Below, in pieces: positions 616-26,208 of a stretch of 29,581 nt of DNA. Numbering within the stretch: position 1 is the first letter of the stretch; every line of letters starts with the position of its first letter. The notes below the pieces were generated by a model, which did no database searches, was not told where the DNA came from, and worked only from the letters and a program-made list of their open reading frames with translations. A program made the position numbers and the translations under genes. Source of the stretch: a virus; IMG/VR virus record IMGVR_UViG_3300033571_001037, positions 1-29,581 of that record. The stretch is one strand, 5' to 3'.

Positions 616-932
616 TAAAATTTTACTCCATGCTTCTCTGGACGAGTCTTATTGTAGCCAGTCTTCTTTTCAAATGCCTCATCCAAAGATACATTTGTAT
701 ACTCATGCTCACGCAACCCTGCGTACAAGTCAAAGGTGCGGATCAGGATGTCTGCCATCTCATCTGCAACCTCTTCTGGTCCACGAGATTTACGAATTGC
801 TTCCATTACCTCAACTGCTTCTGACACAATCATCATTAGCTGTTTTGTAATAAAAATGTCGTCAACATTCTCTGGCCAGAAGCCTTTTTCTACTGCTGTT
901 TCGTGTAAATCTTTTGCAATTTCATCAAGCAC
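615..932 (-). CDS. MazG-like nucleotide pyrophosphohydrolase
   Basis: This 105-residue all-helical protein carries the metal-binding signature of the MazG/dUTPase-like NTP-PPase superfamily: E38xxE41, then 16 residues, then E58xxD61. Family members hydrolyse NTPs to NMP and pyrophosphate; phage versions are thought to adjust nucleotide pools or (p)ppGpp. The substrate cannot be read from the sequence. The start is GTG at 932, because no in-frame ATG lies nearby and GGAGG sits about 9 bases upstream, inside the last codons of the polymerase gene. The gene overlaps the polymerase stop by 8 bases and the RecA-like start by one base, so it sits in a coupled DNA-metabolism operon. Confidence 0.85.
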   Translation of the reverse strand: MLDEIAKDLHETAVEKGFWPENVDDIFITKQLMMIVSEAVEVMEAIRKSRGPEEVADEMADILIRTFDLYAGLREHEYTNVSLDEAFEKKTGYNKTRPEKHGVKF

Positions 933-3900
933 TTTTTATATCCTCCATAATTACTGTTCCGTCTTTTGTTTGTCCAAGGATAAAGTTGTAGGCATTACCC
1001 TCTTCAATTTTCATATATGCTTTTGGAAAGGCAGTTGGAAATACTGTTACAGAGTGCAAGTCTCTTGTTGAGTCTGCCAGAACCAAAGATGCCATTTTCT
1101 TTCCAGCTTTTGTAACCCTTGGTCTGAAAGATACAACAAACATTTCTTCATCTTTATATGGCAACATCCTGTAATTAAGGAACTTAACAATTGCTGCAGG
1201 AGAATTCTTTACCTCATCAATTGGCACGGCGCTGACAATCCTGTTATCAGATGCCAGCAAGAGGTAGGTCTTTCCAGTCTCAATAGAAGTTTGCTCTTCA
1301 TCAAAGATACCAATGCTTCCAGTTTTATCTAGAATCTCTACCCTGGACCAGCCCTGCCCACGCTTAATGCTCTTTACCATACCCATCAAAACAAAAGAAC
1401 CTTTTTCTTCAAAGTCTTCTACTGGATTAATAAAGGCGTGGTAGTGAGATGGAACAGAGATGTTAAATTCTGGAAGGTTTAAGAACTCATAAAGATTTTC
1501 CCGAATCTCCTCATCGTTCCTAGGATTATCCTCAAACGTTGCAGCTCCAACCACTCTAAGAGCCTGGAGCGCTCTACTGTTTACCCCACTGCCCTTTGTA
1601 AACACAAACTCTTCCAAGTGCTTGTATGAGGTAAACGGTCTTGCTTCAATAAACTTGGTGGCAATGTTGTCTGAAATAAACTTAATTGCACTTAGTCCAA
1701 ATCGAATACCCTTGCCCTCGATCTTGAAGTCCATATCTGAATCGTTAATGTGTGGAAGCTTGATGGAGATACCCATTCTTTTAGCCTCAATAAGATACTC
1801 TGTGCGAGCATCCTTGTCTTTTTCATTTTTCAACAAAGAGTACATAAACTCAATTGGATAATAGTACTTCAACCATGCAGTCCAGTAGGAAAGGGTTGAG
1901 TAGGCCACGGCGTGAGACTTGTTAAAGGAATACCCAGCGTGAGCCTCAAAGTCCGTCCACAGGTCTAGTGCGGCGTTAGGCGTAAGGAATCTAGAAGCCC
2001 CAGCTACGAACTGGTCCTTAAACTGGTCAAACTCCTTAGCATCCTTCTTCTTACCAATAATCTTACGAACCTTATCAGCTTCTGCCATAGTCATTCCACC
2101 AAGCTCTGTACAGGCCTGCATAACTTGTTCCTGGTACAGAATACATCCGTAGGTGTCCTGAGTAAATGCCTTCATTACCTGGTGGTGGTAGCTAATATTT
2201 TGCTTACCGTGCTTACGAGCAATGTAGTCTTTACCAATAGTATTCATAGCACCTGGGCGAACAAGTGCGTTAGATGCAGCAAGCTCATTAAAGTTCTTGA
2301 CACCCATCTTAACTAGAAGGTTTGTATATGGAGTAGCTTCACATTGAAAGACCCCCTTAGTATAGCCATCAGACAGCATCTTGTAGATGTTTGCATCTTC
2401 CATATTAATCTTTAGAAGATCGATCCTCTTGCTGCCTTCTCTATCCTGAATAATTTTAAGAGTGTCGTCAAGCACTGACAAAGTTTTTAGTCCCAAAGCA
2501 TCAATCTTAATCAGACCAATCCTTTCAGCCTCTGTCATGTCTACAGCTACTACTGGAATTCTTTCCTTAGATCCTGGAGTGGTTCTAGTTTCTAGAGGAG
2601 CATACTTAAAGATTGGGTCCTTTGATGTAACAACTCCAGCAGCGTGAATACCAGTACCACGAATTCTTCCTCGAAGCTGCTCTCCATACTTTTCAATTTC
2701 TGGATACTTCTCACGGAACTCTGCGGTCTGCTTAGAGCTGCAGTATTCATCCCAAGTGTCTACAAGCTTCATAACCTTGTTGACATCCGACAAAGGAATG
2801 TTTAGAACACGTGCAATGTCTCGAACAACACCCTTGTCTTTAAAAGATAGGAAGGTTGCGATAGAAGCTACGTGCCTATACTGACGAACCAAATAATCCT
2901 TTACCTCTTCACGACGTGAGTCCTGAATGTCGGTATCGATATCTGGGAAGTCGTTACGCTCTGGATTAATGAATCGGAAAAACAGTAGTCCATGAGGAAT
3001 CGGGTCAATGTCTGTGATTCCTAGAGCATAGCATAGAAGCGAGCCAGCAGAAGATCCACGTCCTGGACCTACGACAATGCCTTCTTTCTTTGCCCAGGCA
3101 ATCATAGAACGAACAACAAGGAAGTACGGGCCAAAGCTTTTATCTTGAATAATCTTTAGCTCTTCTTCTAGCCTGTCTAGGTATTCTTGGTTTCCTTCGA
3201 AACCTCTTTCGGCAAGCCCCTCAAGCGCTAGGGTTCGCAACTCTTTGTCTGGGTCCTGATACTGAACTGGCAAAAGATTTAGGTGGTCTTTAATCTTATA
3301 GTCCTGAATCTTGTCTACAATCTCAAGAGTATTCTGATACATGTCTTCTCTGTCAATGCCCTGCGCCTTCATAGCGTTGTGCATTTCTTCGTCAGAGAGT
3401 AGGTGAATCTCAAAGTTATTAAAACTCATTTGGCGGTCTGCACCATACAGGTAGTCTAAACGATCCATCAGGTTGTCGTACTTTGCAGACTTCTCGTAGG
3501 TAACATCCTTCTCTGTTTTATTAGAGTAGGAGTTTAGAATTAGTTTTAGTTCTTGAATTTCTTTTTGAGATGGGTCAGAGTGGTGGCAGTCTGGAGTTAC
3601 CACAGGCTTGATTCCAAACTCATCGGCCAAGTCTAGGATAGTCTTGTTAATCTCTGGTGGGTTATGTGGCATTACCTCTAGGTAATAATCATCACCAAAT
3701 GTTTCCTTGCACCACTGGATGTGCTCTTTAGCATACGCCAGCTCGTTAGCCTCGATTGCTTTTGCCAATACACCAGACAGACAGCCTGATGTAATAACTA
3801 GCCCATCTTTGTACTTTTCTAAAATTTCCCAGTCAATGCGTGGCTTCTTATAAAAGCCTTCTGTCCAGGCAAGCTCGTTTAGCTTGTTAAGGTTTTGCAA

Positions 3901-4206
3901 TCCTTTTGCATTCTTTGCTAGGATAATTAAGTGGTTGTAGTTAAGATCTAGGGGATCGTTCTTTTCTTTTTTGTCTGTGTGGTCTTTACGATCCTTGGTG
4001 ATGTACCCCTCAATTCCAAGAATTGGTTTGATGCCTGCCTCTTTGGCGGCTCGGTACATTTCCCTGTGACCAGACAGAGAACCATGGTCTGTGATTGCAA
4101 TAGCTGGCATTCCTAGCTGTACTGCACGGTCCACATATTCCTGTGGTGTGGCGATTCCGTCAAACAAACTGTAGTGCGTATGAACGTGAAGCCCTGCGTA
4201 ACTCAT
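925..4206 (-). CDS. dnaE: DNA polymerase III alpha subunit (DnaE-type) with intact PHP domain
   Basis: This is a full-length 1093-residue C-family replicative DNA polymerase, slightly shorter than typical bacterial DnaE (about 1160-1190). The PHP domain opens the protein: HVH at 7-9, TDHGS at 39-43 and a CHH motif near 206. The palm has GPGRGSSAGS and then PDIDTD, with catalytic D422 and D424; the third aspartate is D569 in KIDALGLKTL. The fingers and helix-hairpin-helix region follow, then a C-terminal OB-fold (GSFVLMGMVKS). The PHP metal ligands appear intact, so built-in 3'-5' proofreading is plausible, as known for mycobacterial DnaE1. The ATG at 4206 has AAGGA four bases upstream and a near-consensus promoter at 4241-4269. 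No beta clamp, tau or epsilon gene is seen here, so host clamp use or genes outside the window are likely. Confidence 0.96.
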   Translation of the reverse strand: MSYAGLHVHTHYSLFDGIATPQEYVDRAVQLGMPAIAITDHGSLSGHREMYRAAKEAGIKPILGIEGYITKDRKDHTDKKEKNDPLDLNYNHLIILAKNAKGLQNLNKLNELAWTEGFYKKPRIDWEILEKYKDGLVITSGCLSGVLAKAIEANELAYAKEHIQWCKETFGDDYYLEVMPHNPPEINKTILDLADEFGIKPVVTPDCHHSDPSQKEIQELKLILNSYSNKTEKDVTYEKSAKYDNLMDRLDYLYGADRQMSFNNFEIHLLSDEEMHNAMKAQGIDREDMYQNTLEIVDKIQDYKIKDHLNLLPVQYQDPDKELRTLALEGLAERGFEGNQEYLDRLEEELKIIQDKSFGPYFLVVRSMIAWAKKEGIVVGPGRGSSAGSLLCYALGITDIDPIPHGLLFFRFINPERNDFPDIDTDIQDSRREEVKDYLVRQYRHVASIATFLSFKDKGVVRDIARVLNIPLSDVNKVMKLVDTWDEYCSSKQTAEFREKYPEIEKYGEQLRGRIRGTGIHAAGVVTSKDPIFKYAPLETRTTPGSKERIPVVAVDMTEAERIGLIKIDALGLKTLSVLDDTLKIIQDREGSKRIDLLKINMEDANIYKMLSDGYTKGVFQCEATPYTNLLVKMGVKNFNELAASNALVRPGAMNTIGKDYIARKHGKQNISYHHQVMKAFTQDTYGCILYQEQVMQACTELGGMTMAEADKVRKIIGKKKDAKEFDQFKDQFVAGASRFLTPNAALDLWTDFEAHAGYSFNKSHAVAYSTLSYWTAWLKYYYPIEFMYSLLKNEKDKDARTEYLIEAKRMGISIKLPHINDSDMDFKIEGKGIRFGLSAIKFISDNIATKFIEARPFTSYKHLEEFVFTKGSGVNSRALQALRVVGAATFEDNPRNDEEIRENLYEFLNLPEFNISVPSHYHAFINPVEDFEEKGSFVLMGMVKSIKRGQGWSRVEILDKTGSIGIFDEEQTSIETGKTYLLLASDNRIVSAVPIDEVKNSPAAIVKFLNYRMLPYKDEEMFVVSFRPRVTKAGKKMASLVLADSTRDLHSVTVFPTAFPKAYMKIEEGNAYNFILGQTKDGTVIMEDIKSA

Positions 4207-8214: not shown

Positions 8215-8658
8215 TTAGTTTGGAATACCGACAATAATTAGGTTAACCCCAACAGATGCCGATCCGCTTGCATTAACCTTTACAATACCCTCAACACGAG
8301 AGGTTGTTACTGACTTAAGGATTACTGAAACGTTTCTTCCTGCTGGAGTATCTCCTACGTTTACAGGAGTGGCCGTTGCAACAGGAGCGTACTTGTAATC
8401 GGCAGGAAAATTGTAGGAAAATGGCTGCTCTTGACCAGCTGTAACTGTTGAGCTTGTATATACATCTATGTATGCAGCATTAATCTTAACCCCAGAAGAC
8501 ATAGTGCTTTGCTTGCCATCGGCAGGTGTGTCAATGGTTACGTATCTATTGTTTGTAGGCGATAGTTGCTGTGAAATATCATTAATTGCTTCTGCAATCT
8601 GATATATGTAGGATAGGTCAATTGGCTGACCTCGTTCTGGTAGTGGTATTCTTGACAT
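8215..8658 (-). CDS. Minor tail / tail-tip protein (147 aa)
   Basis: The product has a short helical N-terminus (LSYIYQIAEAINDISQQL, about 15-32) of the kind used for trimer formation or attachment, then a beta-rich domain (INAAYIDVYTSSTVTAG to the end VNLIIVGIPN) that is probably a jelly-roll or similar tail-tip fold. It follows the fibre-like genes and precedes replication genes, so it is the last structural gene of the cluster. It has its own extended -10 promoter and an AGGAG site four bases before the ATG. I do not recognise a specific family; a receptor-contacting or decoration role is inference. Confidence 0.7.
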   Translation of the reverse strand: MSRIPLPERGQPIDLSYIYQIAEAINDISQQLSPTNNRYVTIDTPADGKQSTMSSGVKINAAYIDVYTSSTVTAGQEQPFSYNFPADYKYAPVATATPVNVGDTPAGRNVSVILKSVTTSRVEGIVKVNASGSASVGVNLIIVGIPN

Positions 8659-15488: not shown

Positions 15489-16151
15489 TTAGACCTCTTC
15501 CAGGGTAACCTGTATATCCCAAAAGTCAAAGTTGTTAGATCCACGCTTAACTACGGAGTAAGAGAAGTCAGAAATAAACATCTCTATAACCTGACTATAT
15601 TTTGAAAGCTGAAGATAAGCCTGAGCATTGTCTCCAAAGTTTGTGTGCTTATCGTATGACAAGTAAACCCAGAAAGAGCCTTTGTGTTGTTCGTACCAGT
15701 CTAGAATTTCTACCCCTCCTGCACCACCGTCAGTGGTAAACTCATCTTTACTGCCAGTTAGCGTAGATCTCCCAGATGAACTAAAGTTTGGAATAGAGCT
15801 AAACGCTCTAGATGGTAACTTTTCCCAGGAAGTAGCTATAGATAGTTTATCAGCAATATGGTATGAGCGCATTCTTCCATTTATCATTCGCTCACGTTTT
15901 TCAATTCTTTCAGTTTTAAAATCAATAGAGGACCTGTTATCATCTGAAAGTATTAAGAACTGGTCCAAATTTGCCAGGTTAGTTTCTCCTGCAGGATTAG
16001 CCCCAACCTCGTTGCCAGTTGGAACAAAGTATCTTTGCTCTTGTGGTGTTCCAGCTGCGACAATCTGCAATGTGCCAGGATTTTCTGACCAAAGCATGGC
16101 TTGTGGTCTTGCATACTTTTTGCGACCTAATAGATAACTTGGTGTGGCCAT
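15489..16151 (-). CDS. Distal tail protein (Dit-like)
   Basis: This 220-residue protein lies directly between the tape measure and the tail hub, the canonical place of Dit. It is beta-rich, with strands such as FWVYLSYDKHTN and VIEMFISDFSYSVVKRGSNN and the C-terminal FDFWDIQVTLEEV, matching the usual ending in which a tail-tube-like strand describes a 'quantity along the tail'. Dit forms the ring that closes the tail tube and holds the hub. The ATG overlaps the tape measure stop (TAATG) and the TAA is directly followed by the hub ATG. Assignment rests mainly on synteny and size. Confidence 0.72.
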   Translation of the reverse strand: MATPSYLLGRKKYARPQAMLWSENPGTLQIVAAGTPQEQRYFVPTGNEVGANPAGETNLANLDQFLILSDDNRSSIDFKTERIEKRERMINGRMRSYHIADKLSIATSWEKLPSRAFSSIPNFSSSGRSTLTGSKDEFTTDGGAGGVEILDWYEQHKGSFWVYLSYDKHTNFGDNAQAYLQLSKYSQVIEMFISDFSYSVVKRGSNNFDFWDIQVTLEEV

Positions 16152-19100
16152 TAGAACCTGTTGCTCCTCATTCTTTGGTCGTCTAGTCCGTGAATTTGCT
16201 TTCTAACGGCTCTAGCAATTTCGTCAGGGTTTGCGTCTGACTTTACCATAACATTAACACTATAATTATACACTGAACCGCCAGATCCTGCAAGAGATCC
16301 AGTCCTATTAATCTCTTCAAGATTGCTTACCCCGAATTTTTTGACAGATGGCTGTTTAACTACAAATTCTCCTGGACTTAGCATTGCTGGAATAGTATCT
16401 GTTCCAGAAGCAAATTGACTAAACAGCTTTGTTGCGAAGCCACCAGATTTCATATAGCCTGGAACCTTGCCTCCTTTGGCAAATTTGGGAAGTGCTGCAA
16501 GTGCTGTTTTTGCTTCTTGTAGCGCTTTGCCAGTCCAACGAATTGACTCATTATAATCTTTTATTATTTTTTCCTGTGCGGCAATTAGTGTTGTTTTCCT
16601 ATCTGCAGGAGAATTGCTCTTTTTAATTTTTTCTATTTCTGTACGGGCGTTACTTATGATTGCATTGTAATCTGCAATTGATTTTTCTAGGGCAGTAATT
16701 TGTTGCTGTAGCTGTTGTCTCTTTGCAGCATTAGGATCTACAGGGCCAGCTGGGCCAGTTCCTGCAGTAGGTCCTGTAACTGGTGGAGGATCATTTACTG
16801 GCTGGCTAGCTGGACCAGTCAAAGATACTGGGTTAGAGTTTACGTTTGCCCAGGCTGCAGCAAGTTGTGGAATTAAAGCTATGGCATCTATAATGCTTTG
16901 CTTGTATGCTTCAGACTTTATACGTGCTAGGTCAATAGCATTTTGGTTTGCTTCCCATTGTACCCTGGTTTGACCCAAGTAAGTCAAAGATTGGAGAATT
17001 GAGTTTTGCAAGTAGTTTGCATTGTCTAGTGCTCTTTGTGCTGGCTCAAGAGTTTGTTCCTCAATATCAAAAATCTCTTTCTTGAGTCTTCTAATTTCTT
17101 TTTCAATTTCTGCCCGTGATTTTCCGTCGGCAGATCTTACTGAACCAAGAGCTTTTTCTCTAGCTGCTTCAATTGTTCTACGCTGAGCTTCAAGTCTTTG
17201 CTGTGCTTCTTTAGCTCGCAACTCCTGGGCTGCCTTAGCAGCTGCTGCAATGTCACCTCTTGAAAGGGCTTCTGCAACGGTAAGCTGAGCTTCCTGTCTT
17301 GCAGCCATCTCTCCATTAGCTTCATTAGCTTTTTCAATAGCCTTGAGTCTATCGTCATAGACTTTATTAATCTCTTCTTCTTGTTCTGCGATACCCTGAA
17401 GAGAAGCTTCATAATCATCAAGGTCGAATTGGTGTTCTGCAATTGCTTCTTGTGCATCTGCAATGGTTTCTTCGAGATCAGCGGTATTGATCAAGCTATC
17501 GTTTTCTCCGCTAAGATTTGTTCCCATTTGGAAGTCTAGCTGTATTTGAGTCTCTAGAGCGTCTAAGCCAGCGAGTACATTACTGACACCCTCGGAAGCA
17601 ACCTCTTCCATTCCTTCTGGTGTTGCAAGCTTTATTTGAAGCTCTATTGCTTGTCCACGACGAAGCTCGTTAAGGTATTTAGCAATCCATCCAGCCGACA
17701 AGGCTCCATCTGCTAGGTCTGCCGCTAGGGCTTTGGCCATTTCTGGATTAGAAAGAACTGTTTCGATAGACTCTAAACTTAGACCCATGGCACTAAGTTG
17801 TGGAATAATCTTTGCAAAGTCTGCAGATATATCGTTAAGGTTTTTTGTTTCAATAAATGCATCTTTGTTCGAAAGGTTCTTTGTTGCAGCATCGACTGCA
17901 CGAATAAGCCCCAAAAGCTCTCTCCACTTTTGTGTTCCAACCTGAGTGGTAGCAATTGCAGCTGCAAGAATTGGATCTTTTGCTGCTCTAAACGCTTCTC
18001 CTATACTTAGTCCTGCGTCACGAAGCTTACCGTAAGCAGAGCTGGCCTCTCTAATTTGCTTTTGCTGTTCTTTAAGATCTTCAATGGCTTCTTCAAATGG
18101 AGTCTTTTCCCTAGACCCTCCGCCACCGCTAAACGTTCTCGAAGCTGCCTGGAAAGGAGAGTTGGCAATAAGACCTTGTAGCTCTTTCCACTTGTCAATG
18201 ACGCCTTGTTGAGCCTGAGCATTTGTTTCTGCAGAAAACGCAGACAAGAAGTTAGCATCAGAAACCATCTTGACCGCTTCTGCTGCACCAATTCCATTGG
18301 CAATAAGAGTTTGATACGCAAGGTCTTGTTCTCTAATCTTATCAATTTGTTCTTGCATTGCAAGAGAAGCTTGCTGGCCTTCTGCAATAGCCTCTTCTTG
18401 ATCTGCCTGAGCTTTTTGGGCCGCAGTTAATTCTATAGTTGCTGCAGCACCAGTTTGCACAACGTTGGTTAAAGCTTTTCTGGCGTCTTCGGCCTTCTTA
18501 GTTTTTCCTGCGTCGGGAGTTCCATCCTTGGCAGCTTCCTCTGCCTCTTTAAGAGCGTTGGCATAGTTTGCTACCTCATCAGCACTTAGGCCAGTTGCAG
18601 CAGCCTGAAGAATTAAGAAAGCATCTGTAGTACTTGTAATTCCTTCAAGAAGTTCTGTGGCACCAAGTTGCGTTGCCAAATCTGGAAGAACGATAGCTGC
18701 TGTCTTTTCATCTAGGCTTGTAAAGCTTTGGTTCAGCTTTGTCATTTCTGCATTAAACTCAGTTGCGCCAATTTGACCATTTACAAGCATGGTGTTTAGA
18801 GATGACATTGTTCCAGCCATTGCCCCCGCAACAAGAGAAGTTTCCGCTGTTGGAGCAGCAGGAGTAGAAGGACTGGTAACTCCGCCTCTTCCACCTCGTC
18901 CAGTTCCCTGCCCAGAAACTGGATTTTGCTCTAAGGCGCCCATAGCTTGTTCTAAAGCAGTTCCAACCTGAGATGGATTTGTCTTAACATCTATAGATGA
19001 GAAAGTTAGGTCAAGAGTTTTCTTTCCAGCTGCGTCAGCAAGAGCCTTAATGATACCTTCCACCACTGCTTGAGGAGCGCCAGAAGCAGAAACGCCCTCG

Positions 19101-22100
19101 GCAATTGATTGCAAAATTATTTGAGCTTGCTCATCTCCAGCTCCCTTTAGAGCCTCAATATCTGCCGCATATTCTTCAAGGAACTGTTCATCGGCAGACC
19201 TTTCAGCAGCTACCTTTTCAGCTTCTAGAGAAGTTGTTCCTCCACCCTGGAATGCGGTTCCTAATGTTCCAGTCTGTGGAGTAAATCCATAAATCTCTCC
19301 AAGCTTTTTTAACTGGTCTGCAGTAACAAAAGCTGCGTTACCCATAGCGGTAATTGCTTCTTTTTCTTTTATCTTAGCGGCAACGGTAAATCCAATAATT
19401 GTTGCAAGTGCTGTTACTGCCAAAATAACAAGACCAACAGGACCTAGGAATGCAGTCATGGCTACCCTTGCAATTGTCAAGGTTCCAGCAAGTCCACCAG
19501 CGGCAGCTGCACCACCTACTGACTTAGCAGCTTCAATAGCTTTCATTGCTATAGCCTTTCTGCCCACAATTAATTCTTGTAGCTTCATTGCGGTTACAGC
19601 TTGAACAATTTGAATTAGTCCAAACATACCAGCAGAAATCATGGAGATTGCTCCAGAGAGTTCTCCGAACTGACCACCGAACATGGAAAGAATTCCACCT
19701 AGGCTAGCAACACCAATAGACAAACTTGTTATTGTGTTTCCAGTATTTTCAAATGCCCTGCCAAGCTTTGAGGATTTTTCAGCATTTTCCTGGTTTGCCT
19801 TAGAAGCATTTTGAGAAGCTACACCCAAAGCGACTAGTGCTGGATGTGCTATTGGAACTGGCCCTGTTGCTTTTGTGGCTTTCTGAGCTTCAGTTTGATT
19901 AGAGAATGTAACGGCAGGAGCAGGGCCCATAGTTCTTCTATTCCCAGTGGCTCCTGCCTCAGCTGAGTTTGCAAGCTGCTGTCCAGCTGAAAACATGTCG
20001 TCCTTGCCAGATTCTAGCCCTTGCTTTGCACCGCTAACAAGGTTTTCGCTAGACTGGTCCATTTCTCTTGAAGGAGAGCTAGCTCCAGAAGCATCGTTTA
20101 CTGCCTCTGCAAGCTGTCTATTAGTTCTTTCAACTATTCGCCTACCAGCATCTGTTAGTGGAGCTGGTGCCGCTCTTCCGTCTGCTTCAGCGTTACCCTG
20201 CGCCATTGCGGCGGTAAGATTTGCTTGAGCATTAGCAATTTGAGCTGGAGTGCGAGAGCCGACTCCTGGGCTAGCTGGGCCTTGTGCTGCCCTGGCATCT
20301 GCACCAGCAACTGTAGCCTTTGCATTTGCAATAAAGTCTGGAGACAGATTGCTCAAAATCTCGCTATCGTCTAAGATGTTTCTTAAAACTTGAGCCTGAA
20401 TCTGTAGCTCTTCTTCAGTTAAAGCAAGGTTGGCATTTATCTTTCTAAGAATTTCTTGCTTTTGATCTTCTGATGCTTGCTCTTCAGTAAGATTGTTTAA
20501 GTTTTCTGTGTAAAGATCTCTTATCGGACCAGAGGATTTGATTGCGTTGCTTAGCTGATTTTCAAATGCTGCTTGAGCTACCCAAAGGTCTTCATTCCAA
20601 CCTTCTTCAAATTGTTTTCCGACACCATCAACTTCTGCAAGGTGAGCCCTGTGTATTTCTCCAGCCTGAGTTACTTTGCCAGCAACCTCTTCTGCAGTCA
20701 TTCCAACTGACTCATAGTACTCAAGCATTGCAGCTTTGCCAGCATTTGCCGAAGCGGTAGCTCTATCGAATTCTTCTTGCCCAGCTGCACCCTTGGCTGC
20801 GACTAGATTTGCTTCTACTCCACCTCTTTTTCCAGAAGCAGAAGCTTTTCTTTCAAGCTCTTTTCCTGTAGCTATTTTTGTAGCTTGTCCTGGCCTCATT
20901 CCGCCAAACTCTGTAGCAACAACCTCAAGCTCTGCCTTAAAGTTTTGAAGAGTTAAGCCAGTTCTGTCGGCAAGTCTTGCAAAGACTTCTTCGATAATGT
21001 CTTCTCCATTATCAACAGATTGTCTAAATTGTTGAGCATAAAGCTCAAGATCTCTAGCAGTTTTTTGTCTAGCTGTATCTATTTGGTAACTTGCTGCAGG
21101 AACTGTAGTGGTTCCACGCACCTGTTGTGGAACGTTTACTGAACCTCTTACAAATCCAGGGATACTGCCTTCAATCATTGCAGCAATAAATCCACGGTTC
21201 TTTTTTGCCACGGCAGCTGGGATAACTGCTTCGCCTGGTTCTAGGAATGCAGCAATCTTATCACCCTTACCAGTACCTGGAACCATTGGAGTTCCCTTAG
21301 AGAATCCTGGAACAGCCTTTGGCTTTCTAGGAGTTGCAATCTTAACATTTGAGTGTACGGCATGGAACTTGCTCCAGTCAACGCCTAGACCAGCTTCAAG
21401 CCTTCTAATCATGTCATCGTAAAGTCCAACCTCAGTTGGGTTTGTTAGTCCAAATGATGCTACAGTCTGCTTTAGTTTTGGAAGAACCTTTGTTATTTCT
21501 GCAATCATCTTTTGGTGGTACTGGGCTGGAGTTAGTCCAGCCATCAGTCCAAGGGTTGATTCTGCAAAAGCTCTCTTAGCACCACCCTTAATTCCAAGCA
21601 GATTAATGATTGCTTGCTCTTCCATTGAAGGCAAGTTTCTGTCATAATCTCTTAGCCCAGATGCCTTATTAAATACCCCAGCTGGACCAGCGTCTGCAAC
21701 TACGTTTCCGTAAACGTTTGAAGCAGACAAATCTTTATCAACACGAAGAAGAGATGCAGTAAGCTGTCTAAAGTACTGCTCTTCGTTAAACACACCCATT
21801 GGCTGAGTATTAACAAACTTGGCATCAAGATCGGACTCTAGAGCCAAGAATCTTCTTATGCCTTTTACGTCCATTGGATCTTTAATAACTACAATTCTTT
21901 GCTGTGGAGCCTCTAGGCCGTGTGCCATTCTAGAAATTTCAGTCGAACGCATTTCAGCAAGTGCTGCTTTTTCATCCAAGACTGGTTTTACAAATACCTG
22001 CTTATTGCCCTTTTGGTATACTCCGCCTAGCCCAAAGATTGGGAAGCTGTGTCCAGTTGTTTTGCTAATCTGGTGACCATAGTTTGTAGGAGGAACGCCA

Positions 22101-24352
22101 GCATATCCGCTCTTCTTAAACATCTCATAAACTTCGTCTGCGGCAGAGCGGTTTTTTGATACTGACTTTGCAGACTGTGGCATTCCTAAAAATACGCCCT
22201 TTGCGTAACCTGGAAGATCTCCAGCAATCATACCCTGAATTAATGGTGCATACTTTTTTGCATGCTTAGCTGGAATAACAGCTTCTCCAGGAGAAAGCAT
22301 TGCTGGAATAATGTCTCCAGCTCCCTTTGGTCCTGGAACAGAAATTACTCCCTTGGCATACTTCTTGGTTTGAGTAGTTCCTCTAGCAACACCGCCTGGA
22401 ACAGAGAATGCTCTTTGTGCGTTAAGACTTCTTGTATACGCTGCTGTAAGCAAGTCAACTGAAGCAGCCTCAGAGGTAAAGGTTTGTTGTAGCTTTGAGT
22501 GTACTTGGTCTAGCGATGCAGCTACAGAAAGCGAACGAAGTTGCTCTTCTGTCATGTAACTTGTTTCTGCACCGAGCCCTGTAGCTTTACCACGAAGCTT
22601 TTGGAACACTTGGCTAATCATTCCAATACCCTTAATTAGGTTTGCAACACCGTTAGCAAGCAGACCAACAACCATGAGAACAACTGGACCAAGACCAGCG
22701 AATAGCAGCGTGGCTCCTGTTATGAATCCTTTAACTCCGTTGTCAAGCTTATTAAACTCTTCTAGAATCTTTGTTCCAAACTCAATAACTGGAGTAATTG
22801 CTTTTAAGAATTCTTCTCCAACTGGAGCAACCGCAGCCTTCAAATCCTCAATTGCTTTTTGGAACTTAAACGTTGAAGACTCTTCAATCTTTCCAAGCTC
22901 TCGACTAGATAGCTGTGCTAGCTCTTCTACTGTGGCGTTGGTTAATTCTAAAACCCTACTTGCCTGGTTGCCGTCCCTAATTACGTTCTGGAAAAGAGTT
23001 GATAGACGTGAAAACTGGAACTTTCCAAAGAGTTGCTCAATTGCCTTAGCTCTGTCTAAAGGATCAAGGACATCTAGGGCACGAGCAAAGTCTTGAACCA
23101 GTCCAACAACATCCCCCTTGTTTTGCTGAACGATAGACTGAATGTTAATTCCAAAGCCTCTAAGCATTTCGCTGGCTACGCCAGTTGGATTAATAAGAGA
23201 TGCAAGACCAGACTTTAGAGCGTTAGCACCTTCAGATGCATTAATTCCACCTTCACGCATAGCTGTTAGCAAGAATGCTAGGTCTTCTACGTCTCCACCA
23301 AGCTGCTTAACGACTGGACCAGCTTTTGGAACTGCGATGGTTAGGTCGTTAATAGATGTAATCGTTTGGTTTTCAACTGCGTTTAGGAAGTCAATTTTCT
23401 TTGCAAGGTCTTCTGTTGCAACCCCGAAAGCATCTGTTATAGATATGGTAGTCTTAAAGGCTTCTCCAAGCTCTACGTTACCAAGCACACCCAGTCTTGT
23501 TGCTTCAGTTACTTGAGCGGTAAGGGCTGCACCAGTCAAACCAGTTGCAGCTGCTTGTGCAGCTAAGTCCATTGTGTCTACAAGGGCTACACCATATTTT
23601 GTAAACTCTCTTGCAAGGGTTTGGATTTCTTCAACCATGGCATTGGTCTCAGCCTCGCCAGTCATCAAATCGCCATAAACACGCTTAAACTGAATAGCTT
23701 GCTTTTCTAGATCCATGAATGTTTTTGCAGCCATGCTTCCAAAAACGCTTAGAGGAAGGGTGAAACCAACCATAAGCTGACGACCAGCCCACTGAGTATT
23801 CTTACCCCAGTTAAGAAGGTTGGTTGATCCTTGTTTTAAAAGCTGATTAAAAAGTTGCTGCTTTTGAGCATTGATAGCAGTCTGTGTTGCTAGGTTCTCC
23901 ATATCAAGGACAAGCGGACGAACCTTGATTGACTGCATTGCACCGTTAGCATCACGGCCTAGCTGAATGTATTGGGTTTGTAAATCTTTTACTCGTTCAC
24001 GAGCTACTTTATTTATTGTTGCAAACTCTGCAGCAAAGTTTTTGCCAAAAGTTTTTGTAGATGCCCCAGCATACCTAAAGTATTCTCCAAGGGAGAACTT
24101 ATTTTTTTCTAGTGAGTTTGTGAATGACTCTGTTGTCGTTCTGACATTGGTCATGCTAGCAGCAAATTTGCCGCTTGCGTTTAGGGACTGGATTAAATCT
24201 TTTTGAAGGTTAGAGGCAGCCGCAGCGTTAGCGGCTGACCCCTTCGCCATTGCGGTATGAAAGGCTGATATTTCTCGCTGTAGATTTTTGATATTTGCTA
24301 GCGCTGCGCTAGTATCAATATCTATTCTAATATTTGACTGAATATCAGCCAT
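16151..24352 (-). CDS. Tail tape measure protein (2733 aa) with embedded domains
   Basis: This is the longest gene in the window. About 1-190 is coiled coil. About 190-430 is the conserved tape measure core (AAQAAATGLTGAALTAQVTE, then MREGGINASEGANALKSG), and hydrophobic stretches lie near 540-575, 1535-1600 and 1610-1665. Two similar linkers (665-720, 1017-1072) carry PGEAVIPA, with a third partial copy (PGEFVVK, 2660). Between the linkers is a globular region with kinase-like motifs. A repeat pair lies at 2006-2062 and 2100-2150. About 2250-2500 is charged coiled coil, followed by a Pro/Gly hinge near 2530. The protein fixes tail length: by the usual 0.15 nm per residue the tail would be about 400 nm. 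It may also help genome entry through its membrane-like stretches. ATG at 24352 has AAGGAAG eight bases upstream; it follows the chaperone genes, as expected. Confidence 0.96.
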   Translation of the reverse strand: MADIQSNIRIDIDTSAALANIKNLQREISAFHTAMAKGSAANAAAASNLQKDLIQSLNASGKFAASMTNVRTTTESFTNSLEKNKFSLGEYFRYAGASTKTFGKNFAAEFATINKVARERVKDLQTQYIQLGRDANGAMQSIKVRPLVLDMENLATQTAINAQKQQLFNQLLKQGSTNLLNWGKNTQWAGRQLMVGFTLPLSVFGSMAAKTFMDLEKQAIQFKRVYGDLMTGEAETNAMVEEIQTLAREFTKYGVALVDTMDLAAQAAATGLTGAALTAQVTEATRLGVLGNVELGEAFKTTISITDAFGVATEDLAKKIDFLNAVENQTITSINDLTIAVPKAGPVVKQLGGDVEDLAFLLTAMREGGINASEGANALKSGLASLINPTGVASEMLRGFGINIQSIVQQNKGDVVGLVQDFARALDVLDPLDRAKAIEQLFGKFQFSRLSTLFQNVIRDGNQASRVLELTNATVEELAQLSSRELGKIEESSTFKFQKAIEDLKAAVAPVGEEFLKAITPVIEFGTKILEEFNKLDNGVKGFITGATLLFAGLGPVVLMVVGLLANGVANLIKGIGMISQVFQKLRGKATGLGAETSYMTEEQLRSLSVAASLDQVHSKLQQTFTSEAASVDLLTAAYTRSLNAQRAFSVPGGVARGTTQTKKYAKGVISVPGPKGAGDIIPAMLSPGEAVIPAKHAKKYAPLIQGMIAGDLPGYAKGVFLGMPQSAKSVSKNRSAADEVYEMFKKSGYAGVPPTNYGHQISKTTGHSFPIFGLGGVYQKGNKQVFVKPVLDEKAALAEMRSTEISRMAHGLEAPQQRIVVIKDPMDVKGIRRFLALESDLDAKFVNTQPMGVFNEEQYFRQLTASLLRVDKDLSASNVYGNVVADAGPAGVFNKASGLRDYDRNLPSMEEQAIINLLGIKGGAKRAFAESTLGLMAGLTPAQYHQKMIAEITKVLPKLKQTVASFGLTNPTEVGLYDDMIRRLEAGLGVDWSKFHAVHSNVKIATPRKPKAVPGFSKGTPMVPGTGKGDKIAAFLEPGEAVIPAAVAKKNRGFIAAMIEGSIPGFVRGSVNVPQQVRGTTTVPAASYQIDTARQKTARDLELYAQQFRQSVDNGEDIIEEVFARLADRTGLTLQNFKAELEVVATEFGGMRPGQATKIATGKELERKASASGKRGGVEANLVAAKGAAGQEEFDRATASANAGKAAMLEYYESVGMTAEEVAGKVTQAGEIHRAHLAEVDGVGKQFEEGWNEDLWVAQAAFENQLSNAIKSSGPIRDLYTENLNNLTEEQASEDQKQEILRKINANLALTEEELQIQAQVLRNILDDSEILSNLSPDFIANAKATVAGADARAAQGPASPGVGSRTPAQIANAQANLTAAMAQGNAEADGRAAPAPLTDAGRRIVERTNRQLAEAVNDASGASSPSREMDQSSENLVSGAKQGLESGKDDMFSAGQQLANSAEAGATGNRRTMGPAPAVTFSNQTEAQKATKATGPVPIAHPALVALGVASQNASKANQENAEKSSKLGRAFENTGNTITSLSIGVASLGGILSMFGGQFGELSGAISMISAGMFGLIQIVQAVTAMKLQELIVGRKAIAMKAIEAAKSVGGAAAAGGLAGTLTIARVAMTAFLGPVGLVILAVTALATIIGFTVAAKIKEKEAITAMGNAAFVTADQLKKLGEIYGFTPQTGTLGTAFQGGGTTSLEAEKVAAERSADEQFLEEYAADIEALKGAGDEQAQIILQSIAEGVSASGAPQAVVEGIIKALADAAGKKTLDLTFSSIDVKTNPSQVGTALEQAMGALEQNPVSGQGTGRGGRGGVTSPSTPAAPTAETSLVAGAMAGTMSSLNTMLVNGQIGATEFNAEMTKLNQSFTSLDEKTAAIVLPDLATQLGATELLEGITSTTDAFLILQAAATGLSADEVANYANALKEAEEAAKDGTPDAGKTKKAEDARKALTNVVQTGAAATIELTAAQKAQADQEEAIAEGQQASLAMQEQIDKIREQDLAYQTLIANGIGAAEAVKMVSDANFLSAFSAETNAQAQQGVIDKWKELQGLIANSPFQAASRTFSGGGGSREKTPFEEAIEDLKEQQKQIREASSAYGKLRDAGLSIGEAFRAAKDPILAAAIATTQVGTQKWRELLGLIRAVDAATKNLSNKDAFIETKNLNDISADFAKIIPQLSAMGLSLESIETVLSNPEMAKALAADLADGALSAGWIAKYLNELRRGQAIELQIKLATPEGMEEVASEGVSNVLAGLDALETQIQLDFQMGTNLSGENDSLINTADLEETIADAQEAIAEHQFDLDDYEASLQGIAEQEEEINKVYDDRLKAIEKANEANGEMAARQEAQLTVAEALSRGDIAAAAKAAQELRAKEAQQRLEAQRRTIEAAREKALGSVRSADGKSRAEIEKEIRRLKKEIFDIEEQTLEPAQRALDNANYLQNSILQSLTYLGQTRVQWEANQNAIDLARIKSEAYKQSIIDAIALIPQLAAAWANVNSNPVSLTGPASQPVNDPPPVTGPTAGTGPAGPVDPNAAKRQQLQQQITALEKSIADYNAIISNARTEIEKIKKSNSPADRKTTLIAAQEKIIKDYNESIRWTGKALQEAKTALAALPKFAKGGKVPGYMKSGGFATKLFSQFASGTDTIPAMLSPGEFVVKQPSVKKFGVSNLEEINRTGSLAGSGGSVYNYSVNVMVKSDANPDEIARAVRKQIHGLDDQRMRSNRF
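17903..18055 (-). repeat. Tape measure internal repeat, copy B
   Basis: Codes for residues 2100-2150 (IREASSAYGKLRDAG ... KWRELLGLI), which align with copy A: an IRE start, 'AY..L...G...GEA', then KW(R/K)EL.GLI. It is preceded in both cases by a Gln/Lys-rich helix. Confidence 0.6.
18167..18337 (-). repeat. Tape measure internal repeat, copy A
   Basis: Codes for residues 2006-2062 (IREQDLAYQTLIANGIGAAE ... KWKELQGLI). Aligns with copy B, which starts 94 residues later and is about six residues shorter. A partial duplication within the tape measure is the simplest reading. Confidence 0.6.
21137..21304 (-). repeat. Tape measure linker repeat, copy 2
   Basis: Codes for residues 1017-1072: 'SKG...VPGTGKGDKIAAFL', then PGEAVIPA (1039-1046), 'AKK...FI..MI.G.IPG...G'. 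It aligns along its whole length with copy 1 at 665-720 (22193-22360). Confidence 0.8.
21473..22045 (-). other. Kinase-like candidate domain embedded in tape measure (residues ~770-960)
   Basis: This region is globular, unlike the coiled-coil parts of tape measure proteins. It has a Gly-rich turn (GLGGVYQKGN, 774-783) leading to VFVKP with K789, a helix with E800/E805, a strand IVVIK (820-824), then DLSASN (D874, N879) and DAG (887-889). The spacing recalls the nucleotide Lys, helix-C Glu, catalytic loop and DFG order of kinases. VxKP rather than VAIK is closer to the PI3/PI4-kinase-like branch. The D-to-N spacing equals that of HRDLKPEN; the N-to-DxG gap is short. Motif reading only. Confidence 0.35.
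22193..22360 (-). repeat. Tape measure linker repeat, copy 1
   Basis: Codes for residues 665-720: 'AKGVISVPGPKGAGDIIPAM', then PGEAVIPA (688-695), 'AKKYAPLIQGMIAGDLPG' and AKGV. Together with copy 2 it brackets the kinase-like candidate. A shorter relative (GTDTIPAMLSPGEFVV) lies near the C-terminus. Confidence 0.8.
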
Positions 24353-24368
24353 TCACTACACTTCCTTT

Positions 24369-24686
24369 TTAGCGACTTGCAGGATTGTTAAGATCGCTCA
24401 AGCGGGCGCCTGATGCCTCTTCAACAATTCTGTAAACAGTTGGCAAGTCAAGTTGCTCTTCCAACTCTTTAATGTCTGTCGCTAGTTCTGGCTTGTACTG
24501 CTTCATAGCGATCTGGACACACTCCATTAGCAGGTTGATAGACTTCTCATTGTCCTCTGCTACCTTTGCAATACCCTCAAATTTCTTAGTGAATTCACGT
24601 AGTAGTGAAATCTTTAGCGGACGTACCGCAATTTCTGTTCCATCAATTAGTTTAATGGTGCTTTGTTCATTAATTGTTGTTGCCAT
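24369..24686 (-). CDS. Tail assembly chaperone, short paralog (105 aa)
   Basis: This 105-residue protein consists only of the domain shared with the upstream 231-residue protein: EIAVRPLKISLLREF, LLMECVQIAMKQYKPEL, then DLPTVYRIVEE. A hand alignment gives about 35 identical positions over about 80 residues. By position (between major tail protein and tape measure) it is a tail assembly chaperone, corresponding to the G form in lambda. Only 16 bases separate its stop from the tape measure ATG, leaving no room for a frameshifted T extension. It has an extended -10 promoter in the short gap upstream and an AAGGA site about eight bases before ATG 24686. Confidence 0.82.
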   Translation of the reverse strand: MATTINEQSTIKLIDGTEIAVRPLKISLLREFTKKFEGIAKVAEDNEKSINLLMECVQIAMKQYKPELATDIKELEEQLDLPTVYRIVEEASGARLSDLNNPASR

Positions 24687-24717
24687 TATTCGTTTCCTTC
24701 CGAAATAGGTTTATCTA

Positions 24718-24726
24718 ATTATAACA
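24718..24726 (-). promoter_or_regulatory. Extended -10 promoter before short chaperone
   Basis: The minus strand reads TGTTATAAT (24718-24726), starting three bases after the TGA stop of the long chaperone gene. I see no good -35, but extended -10 promoters can do without one. The leader would be about 25 bases and include the ribosome site. Confidence 0.6.
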
Positions 24727-24729
24727 CAA

Positions 24730-25425
24730 TCACTTGGTTTTTTTGGTTAAATCTTGGTACCCAAGCCCCATACCAATACCAAACCCTGCCTTGGATGCGT
24801 TAGCCCCTTGTAGGGCTACCACGTCGTTTGCATCGGTTGTTCTTCCTCCGCTAAAATGCTTGGCTTTCATTTTTTGCCAAGCATCCTGTCCATCATCCTT
24901 GCCCTTATCTATGTCAATCCCTTGGATTGCTGCAAGAAACTTTTTTTCCTCATGATCTAGCTCTCGCTTTGACTCAAGCGTGGCCACCAGCTCTGGCATA
25001 GACATCGATGTCTCCAGCTCTTCGTAGTCTTTCCAAATACCCAAAAGAAAAACTTCTGACTCTAACTTAGCCAAGTCAAGCTTTTCCCACGTAGTACCAC
25101 TCTCAACAGCCTGTTGTTTAACTGGCTCTTCTGACTTTTCGCTAACCTTAATACCACCTGCTACGTCAATAATCTTATATATAGTTGGTAGATCAAAAGA
25201 GTCTTCTAGATCTTCTGTAGTTTTTATTTCTGGGTAGTACTGTTTCATGGAAATTCTAGCACACTCTACCAGCAAGCCAATGGCTTCGTCGTCATTCTTG
25301 GCTGCCCTGACTTTTTCTAAAACTGCCAGGAATTCTCTCAAATACTTAATCTTTAATGGGATAACGTAGATTTCCACATCGTCTACAGTCTTGACAAATG
25401 CGGTATCGTATATTTTGGTGGCCAT
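24730..25425 (-). CDS. Tail assembly chaperone, long paralog (231 aa)
   Basis: Residues about 1-100 form the chaperone N-domain shared with the 105-residue paralog (EIYVIPLKIKYLREF; LLVECARISMKQYYPEI; DLPTIYKII). After a linker (about 100-112) comes an extra domain (WEKLDLAKLESEVFLLGIWK; ELVATLESKRELDHEEKKFL) and a Gly-rich end (GFGIGMGLGYQDLTKKTK). This matches a lambda GT-type fusion, but in one continuous frame: no slippage is needed and I saw no clear in-frame slippery heptamer near the junction. GT proteins bring tape measure and tail tube subunits together. The ATG at 25425 has no ribosome site; the upstream -10 sits six bases away, so translation is probably leaderless. Confidence 0.82.
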   Translation of the reverse strand: MATKIYDTAFVKTVDDVEIYVIPLKIKYLREFLAVLEKVRAAKNDDEAIGLLVECARISMKQYYPEIKTTEDLEDSFDLPTIYKIIDVAGGIKVSEKSEEPVKQQAVESGTTWEKLDLAKLESEVFLLGIWKDYEELETSMSMPELVATLESKRELDHEEKKFLAAIQGIDIDKGKDDGQDAWQKMKAKHFSGGRTTDANDVVALQGANASKAGFGIGMGLGYQDLTKKTK

Positions 25426-25431
25426 GTATCC

Positions 25432-25460
25432 ATTATAGCAAAAAGAAACTGCCCAGGCAA
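25432..25460 (-). promoter_or_regulatory. Extended -10 promoter giving a leaderless chaperone mRNA
   Basis: The minus strand reads TTGCCT (25455-25460), 17 bases, TATAAT (25432-25437) preceded by TGC. GGATAC separates the -10 from the ATG, so the start point falls at or next to the A of the ATG. No Shine-Dalgarno site is present. The -35 lies inside the terminator stem described at 25447-25478. Confidence 0.72.
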
Positions 25461-25478
25461 GTTAATACCTGGACAGTT
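25447..25478 (-). terminator. Rho-independent terminator after the major tail protein
   Basis: On the minus strand AACTGTCCAGG and CCTGGGCAGTT form an 11-bp stem (one G-U pair) with a 10-base loop, followed by TCTTTTT (to about 25441). It lies 25 bases after the major tail protein stop and would end or attenuate that abundant transcript. Confidence 0.85.
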
Positions 25479-25503: not shown

Positions 25504-26208
25504 TTAGCTGTTTAGGGATAGTGTACGATCTACGATCTTACCGTAAGAAGCATCGTCGTTTGGAAGCAAGCGGAAGCTTACCTCAAACATTGTTGCCTCG
25601 TCACGCTTTGCAGATACTGTAACGCTCTCAATTGAAAGTGCACGGTATGCTACGTAGATACGCTCGATCTGGTCACCCTCAGCACAGTCACCTGTACCTG
25701 GACCAACTGCTACTAGACCACGCTCTACTGGACATTCTCCAATGTCACCAGCAGACATGTTCATAACCTTGTTTCCTGCAAACAGACCAGTTGTTGCTCC
25801 TGGACCGCTCTTTGGAGTAATGTCATCTGGAGCACCTGCAACTGCGAATAGCAAGTTCTCTAGTGTAGACTCAGCAAATGTAGTATTCAGGTTAACCTGC
25901 ATACCTTGCTTGTATAGCTTTGCAACGTCGAGTACCTGGTCAACCTGTACTTCTCCGAAATCAGGCTGGAACTGAATTTCCAAACCGTTCATTGTGTAAC
26001 CAACGTTACGGTAGTCTGTATCAGCTGTCAGCGTGTTGCGGTAAGTTACGTCCTCACCAAGAGCTGGAAGGTCAAGCTCAGCCTGAGCGTTTGTAAGCGC
26101 TCCCGCTGTTGGACCTGTAGCTACCTGACCGATTGGACCAGCCTCGTATGTAAATAGCGCTGCTGCACCAACAATGATGTTTGCGCTAGAACCACGTGTA
26201 TATGCCAT
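25504..26208 (-). CDS. Major tail (tube) protein
   Basis: This 234-residue beta-rich protein sits just before the chaperones and tape measure, the standard place for the tube subunit. Strand-like segments include GYTMNGLEIQFQPDFGEVQV and RALSIESVTVSAKRDEATMF, the second resembling the common tail-tube ending. It begins MAYTRGSSANIIVGAAALF, similar to other actinophage tube proteins. A strong AGGTG site lies seven bases before the ATG, and the gene is framed by its own extended -10 upstream and a clear terminator downstream, fitting high expression. An unusual short segment with two Cys (about 157-178, ECPV and GDC) lies in a loop. Confidence 0.88.
   Translation of the reverse strand: MAYTRGSSANIIVGAAALFTYEAGPIGQVATGPTAGALTNAQAELDLPALGEDVTYRNTLTADTDYRNVGYTMNGLEIQFQPDFGEVQVDQVLDVAKLYKQGMQVNLNTTFAESTLENLLFAVAGAPDDITPKSGPGATTGLFAGNKVMNMSAGDIGECPVERGLVAVGPGTGDCAEGDQIERIYVAYRALSIESVTVSAKRDEATMFEVSFRLLPNDDASYGKIVDRTLSLNS

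Follow-up and report, generated by a model that had tools for sequence, protein, structure and literature searches.

A probable two-gene tail assembly chaperone pair in place of the programmed -1 frameshift in an environmental virus and its relatives

Described chaperone systems and the locus in the window

Programmed frameshifting in tail assembly chaperones is among the most conserved recoding events of phages, and its purpose is thought to be the setting of the ratio between a short protein (G) and a long one (GT). In lambda, gpG and gpGT are made by -1 frameshifting, gpG being about 30 times as abundant as gpGT, and the short form coats the tape measure protein, while the T domain of the long form recruits the subunits of the tail tube (PMC5009743). 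When G and T were permanently fused in TP901-1, with no separate G, the particles looked normal and were non-infectious (PMC4493119). Another arrangement has been reported in the T4-like phages, in which one short and one fused long chaperone gene work with no frameshift (Vladimirov, Gautam and Davidson 2022, Virology 566:9, quoted in PMC10885494). In the Microbacterium EA phages, the chaperone ORFs have been described as separately expressed (PMC7302621); actinophage chaperone ORFs that have no evident slip site have also been published, and by their description they are not reported as a fusion of the N- and C-terminal domains (N- and C-domains) accompanied by a duplicated N-domain.

The nearest annotated matches of the proteins analyzed here are actinophages. 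In tblastn against annotated phages, 130 records were found, 127 from Streptomyces and 3 from Rhodococcus phages, with the best E value (6e-30) to Streptomyces phage tail assembly chaperones; among the matches listed, those of the long protein are split in two, and no record aligns with as much as 80% of the long-protein query at a single place. Twelve phages were read in detail (Coruscant, BillNye, EGole, Faust, Wofford, Annadreamy, Patelgo, Gilson, Karimac, Jay2Jay, Francesca, and NiceHouse), and in all of them the space from the major tail protein gene to the tape measure gene holds an N-domain ORF and a C-domain ORF that are out of frame with each other, the latter at -1. Many of these ORFs are annotated as tail assembly chaperones, and a joined two-part product is annotated in Patelgo, Francesca, and NiceHouse. 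The Stanwilliamsviridae (Streptomyces phages Coruscant, BillNye, Faust, Patelgo, and others) are homologous to our proteins in the C-domain and also in the N-domain, and the Rhodococcus phages Francesca and NiceHouse in the C-domain. These frameshift types share with the present locus the slot between the major tail protein and tape measure genes, a terminator-like hairpin after the major tail protein gene, and an extended -10 upstream; however, they have a single leadered gene driven by a Shine-Dalgarno sequence (SD), in which a -1 slip joins N and C, whereas here N and C stand in one frame whose start is of the leaderless type, and the next gene is a separate N gene with a leader.

The window, i.e., the whole stretch of 29.6 kb that was analyzed, carries on its minus strand, in this order, the genes of the major tail protein, the long protein, the short protein, and the tape measure protein, with the following features:

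25504..26208, minus: major tail protein gene (PHROG 2175, 1.1e-31; synteny with annotated major tail proteins)
25439..25478, minus: terminator-like hairpin and U-rich tract, arms 25468-25478 and 25447-25457, read from the sequence
25432..25440, minus: extended -10 TGCTATAAT of the long gene, 6 nt before ATG; predicted leaderless start
24730..25425, minus: putative long chaperone gene (GT equivalent), 231 aa, ATG start, single unbroken ORF
24718..24726, minus: extended -10 TGTTATAAT of the short gene, 31 nt before ATG; leadered
24693..24701, minus: Shine-Dalgarno GGAAGGAAA of the short gene, anti-SD energy -9.3
24369..24686, minus: putative short chaperone gene (G equivalent), 105 aa, ATG start, N-domain only
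16151..24352, minus: tape measure protein gene, an ORF of 2733 aa with its own SD and without an extended -10

The upstream neighbor of the long gene, the major tail protein gene, belongs to a "protein with Ig domain" family, and the hairpin lies between these two genes. The tape measure gene starts 16 nt past the stop of the short gene (11-39 nt in relatives). The pair occupies the slot of G and GT in lambda, with a spacing kept in relatives. Within the tape measure gene, around 21254-22453, a long stretch without any Pfam match lies between repeated PAMLSPGEAVIPA-like segments. Elsewhere in the window and in the same direction as the tail genes, 925-4206 (minus) encodes a 1093-aa DNA polymerase III alpha subunit with PHP, DNA_pol3_alpha, and finger domains, and a 147-aa ORF (8215-8658, minus) has an unusual start, with an extended -10 (TGATATAAT) 9 nt before its ATG and an SD-like AGGAG in between.

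The original prediction described two adjacent genes, the long one first, encoding related proteins of 231 and 105 residues, and both ORFs are present as described. In the long protein, the N-domain spans residues 1-98 and is followed by a linker and a C-domain at about 110-231, all in one frame. BLASTP aligns the short protein with these first 98 residues at 43/98 identical and 69/98 positive positions (E 3e-27); an earlier hand count had given about 35 identities in 80. PHROG 10504 matches both N-domains (5.6e-21 and 6e-19) and PHROG 10474 matches the C-domain, present in the long protein only, both families being listed under "unknown function". AlphaFold2 models of modest confidence (pLDDT 78 and pTM 0.61 for the long protein, 70 and 0.55 for the short one) gave an identical order of elements in the common domain. 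In identity, common PHROG, and predicted order of secondary structure, the short protein is the counterpart of the long protein's N-domain, as in G and GT.

Fold and profile searches gave some matches to known chaperones. In BFVD, a collection of predicted viral proteins, the best fold match is an unnamed protein (A0A9E7LT63, E 1.8e-13), with a named tail assembly chaperone ranking third (9.3e-4) and further chaperone matches weaker; the named chaperone family PHROG 1932 matched weakly, in 7/64 sequences (best 3.2e-4), and PF23857 in 1/53. On the other hand, Pfam and PDB sequence searches gave nothing convincing, Foldseek against the PDB gave no match at E<=0.001, and no sequence relation to lambda gpG/gpGT was detectable, the likeness in function to these being one of analogy. 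Taken with the homology to annotated chaperones, these matches suggest that the long and short proteins would act as chaperones.

Two kinds of locus among the relatives

Relatives, which are about 39% G+C and come from environmental contigs, were gathered by scanning IMG/VR, which returned hundreds, and their loci were typed by profile searches of the translations for the N- and C-domains. The 254 loci classified are best matches to the queries, their proportions not being population frequencies; they comprise 188 distinct loci (153 fused and 35 frameshift), and since many are near relatives, the counts given below are of non-identical, not phylogenetically independent, sequences. A fused N-C gene followed by a separate N gene was found in 210/254, that is, a fused long and a separate short gene with no frameshift, as described for the T4-like phages, which are a different phage group likened here by their gene arrangement as quoted. 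In 40/254, N and C lie in different frames, always -1. Three fused loci end 16-128 nt past the last match and are not scorable for the short gene, and a single one (L162, 1/254), at a contig end, seems to hold a short gene alongside a long gene that is broken. Among the scorable loci of the 254, there was no fused gene without a short gene and no frameshift type with a second N gene, either of which would be an intermediate state. A search of the genome collection gave one locus only, L255 (CAINGU010000031.1), of the frameshift type and in a MAG labelled as a cyanobacterium, which is probably a misbinned phage contig.

The window C-domain and the -1 frame proteins share 12 invariant columns in 7 sequences, and because this domain aligns with the -1 frame proteins of relatives, the long gene would correspond to the GT product obtained without a frameshift and the short gene to a separate G. 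Frameshift-type loci mostly carry their slip heptamer at one column, as C CCA AAT/C, G GGA AAC, or G GGA AAA. In one subfamily of Streptomyces phages, the Boydwoodruffvirinae (L003, L005, L169, L173, and L174), the -1 frame opens near C CCG GAA, in the column of C CCA AAT elsewhere, which may be a non-canonical site or another frameshift site. In four loci (L168, 3091-3150; L172, 3058-3147; L005, 2923-3144; L003, 2875-3144), the C-domain part of GT is publicly annotated as a separate small gene with an internal start, and these small genes look like mis-annotated -1 frameshift products.

The claim that the long gene has no clear slippery site has to be amended in its letter, since two XXXYYYZ heptamers are in frame in the window, TTTGGGT (about codon 127) and AAAAAAG (about codon 161), and it stands in substance, since neither is conserved and the -1 frame is closed; both were rejected as slip sites. 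The canonical A_AAA_AAG near codon 161 is what would favor the view that the long gene is still a frameshift gene, in which an internal slip there or in the linker yields a truncated, G-like product, the short gene being left as a duplicate that is redundant or in decay. Nevertheless, AAAAAAG is kept in only 33/148 relatives, an XXXYYYZ occurs within the linker in only 30/148 and with no heptamer in common, and the -1 frame past the N-domain stays open for a median of 1 codon, so that no conserved slip site supports frameshifting. A slip site retained in the short gene was likewise considered and rejected (18/148, with mixed heptamers); the short proteins end in a tail similar to that of the frameshift G, in which the slip codons are altered. 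Access to the short gene from the long one by frameshift or readthrough was also discarded, given that the frame offset between them is scattered (88/63/59) and that a promoter-like element and an SD belong to the short gene itself. A single frame and no conserved site were found where lambda makes its long form through a programmed frameshift at a slip site; judged on these predicted products, the pair is of the G/GT type, outside the frameshift class.

Across phages, pairwise identity is 0.70 for the short protein, 0.55 for the long N-domain, and 0.68 for the C-domain, with median dN/dS values of 0.135, 0.196, and 0.133, respectively, and in 95% of phage pairs the identity is higher for the short protein than for the long N-domain. 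Both genes are under purifying selection. These values argue that the short gene is not decaying, and we give a long gene that still frameshifts almost no credence. The faster divergence of the long N-domain, together with the lack of a solved-structure match and the weak matches to the named chaperone families, could instead speak for paralogues with separate roles, the short protein being the chaperone and the long one a different tail protein; against this, the long protein is collinear, in both of its domains, with the GT that related phages join by a frameshift and that is annotated there as tail assembly chaperone, the slot after the major tail protein gene and before the tape measure gene is retained, and the BFVD matches include such chaperones, and we regard separate roles as improbable. 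Very likely, on the comparison of domains and frames, the locus encodes a tail assembly chaperone pair in which two genes have taken the place of the programmed -1 frameshift.

In the N-domain tree, 53 short proteins form one clade (97/91) adjoining five environmental frameshift G proteins (99/95), and the long N-domains are more divergent than the short proteins, their placement varying with rooting and long branches. With the long-branch rows removed, the long and the short sequences each fall on one side of a branch (88 and 99), and long plus short as one group has an AU p of 0.81, so the tree data do not reject it. The C-domain tree, with two changes of state, does not decide for one origin of the fusion. 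Domain homology, the two-state loci, the trees, and the loss of the slip site all support gene duplication in place of the frameshift, as had been proposed. The simplest reading is a tandem duplication of an ancestral G/GT frameshift gene, the first copy then becoming an in-frame N-C fusion, i.e., a constitutive GT, and the second being truncated to its zero-frame N-domain (G) with loss of the slip site, an order of events that we infer. The non-infectious particles of TP901-1 with the fusion alone would explain why the fused state is always paired with a short gene.

Expression signals and the G:GT ratio

An extended -10 of its own for each gene, hence two promoters and two initiation modes, had also been predicted, and this is supported in the window, by TGCTATAAT and TGTTATAAT, and by conservation in about 150 distinct relatives, whose start codons were assigned by alignment. 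For the long gene, the -10 was scored as TGnTAnnnT at 4-10 nt before ATG in 152 distinct genes, all with ATG starts, and TGNTANNNT was found at this distance in 138/152, with a spacing of 5-9 nt and most commonly of 6 nt (73); the exceptions mostly have TAnnnT without TG or a slightly longer spacing. An SD-like 5-mer precedes the long gene in 1/152 (mean anti-SD energy -2.3). From such a -10, transcription would begin at the ATG or no more than about 3 nt away from it, with no SD, as expected of a leaderless gene of the actinobacterial type. Upstream of the short gene, an extended -10 lies at 11-50 nt in 153/153, the perfect TGNTATAAT (TGnTATAAT) is present, at 15-50 nt, in 150/153, and an SD-like 5-mer in 151/153 (anti-SD energy -10.3). 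The hexamers of the long gene are varied (TATACT, TAGAAT, TATAAT, TAAAAT, and TACAAT), whereas that of the short gene is almost fixed. Shuffled upstream regions gave an extended -10 at 4-10 nt in about 1.7% and the perfect motif in 0.4%. Frameshift-type G genes are leadered and have an SD like the short gene (31/34 and 30/34). The hairpin before the long gene has a mean z of -5.86 in 59 relatives, 98% of them below -2, and the same z scan of relatives found none before the short gene. Tape measure genes have an SD but an extended -10 in only 6/148, and given their start 11-39 nt past the short stop, the tape measure gene probably shares a transcript with the short gene.

By analogy with lambda, the long protein would bridge the tape measure, through its N-domain, and the tail tube subunit, through its C-domain, with the short protein coating the tape measure and present in excess over the long form. 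An excess of the short form would be expected from its near-consensus extended -10, its leader, its strong Shine-Dalgarno, and a transcript in common with the tape measure, and also from the position of the long form behind a terminator and its production from a leaderless message. Leaderless messages can be well translated in actinobacteria, so a lower output from such a message is not guaranteed. Promoters of M. tuberculosis that have TGNTANNNT exceed the others in strength, and during growth its leaderless messages were at lower read levels than those with an SD (PMC3898074). The two promoters and initiation modes could set the G:GT ratio. It is possible, and we propose it tentatively from these signals, that recoding was swapped for a device of transcription and initiation, with a leaderless GT, a leadered SD-driven G, and a ratio responsive to the host ribosomes.

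A two-gene chaperone pair whose ratio is set otherwise, by terminator readthrough from the major tail protein transcript, by mRNA decay, or by protein stability, is unlikely, in our view. The terminator between the major tail protein and long genes could indeed be read through late in infection; nevertheless, a readthrough message would give the long ORF no Shine-Dalgarno, whereas a spacing of 5-9 nt from the -10 to the ATG is preserved in 138/152.

Meaning of the two-gene arrangement

The two-gene principle is not wholly new, as T4-like phages have already been reported with a short and a fused long gene. This likeness rests on the gene arrangement as described in the quoted source, and the asymmetry of a leaderless and a leadered gene is a feature of the present family. 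In the open-access literature (subscription papers being outside our scope), we found no report of the two-gene arrangement in this family and none of a leaderless/leadered chaperone pairing.

The arrangement is common to a large group of mostly uncultured phages with hundreds of environmental contigs, and wherever a slip site is expected in annotation, such genes will be overlooked or wrongly named. The domains, their order, and their neighbors have been retained while the ratio device has been replaced, and since frameshift-type relatives exist for comparison, the purpose of the slip site becomes directly testable. If the proposed swap of recoding for promoters and initiation modes is true, the G:GT ratio would differ from a slip frequency, which is fixed by the sequence, and it could follow the state of the host ribosomes, through leaderless initiation with 70S ribosomes versus SD-driven initiation with 30S subunits.
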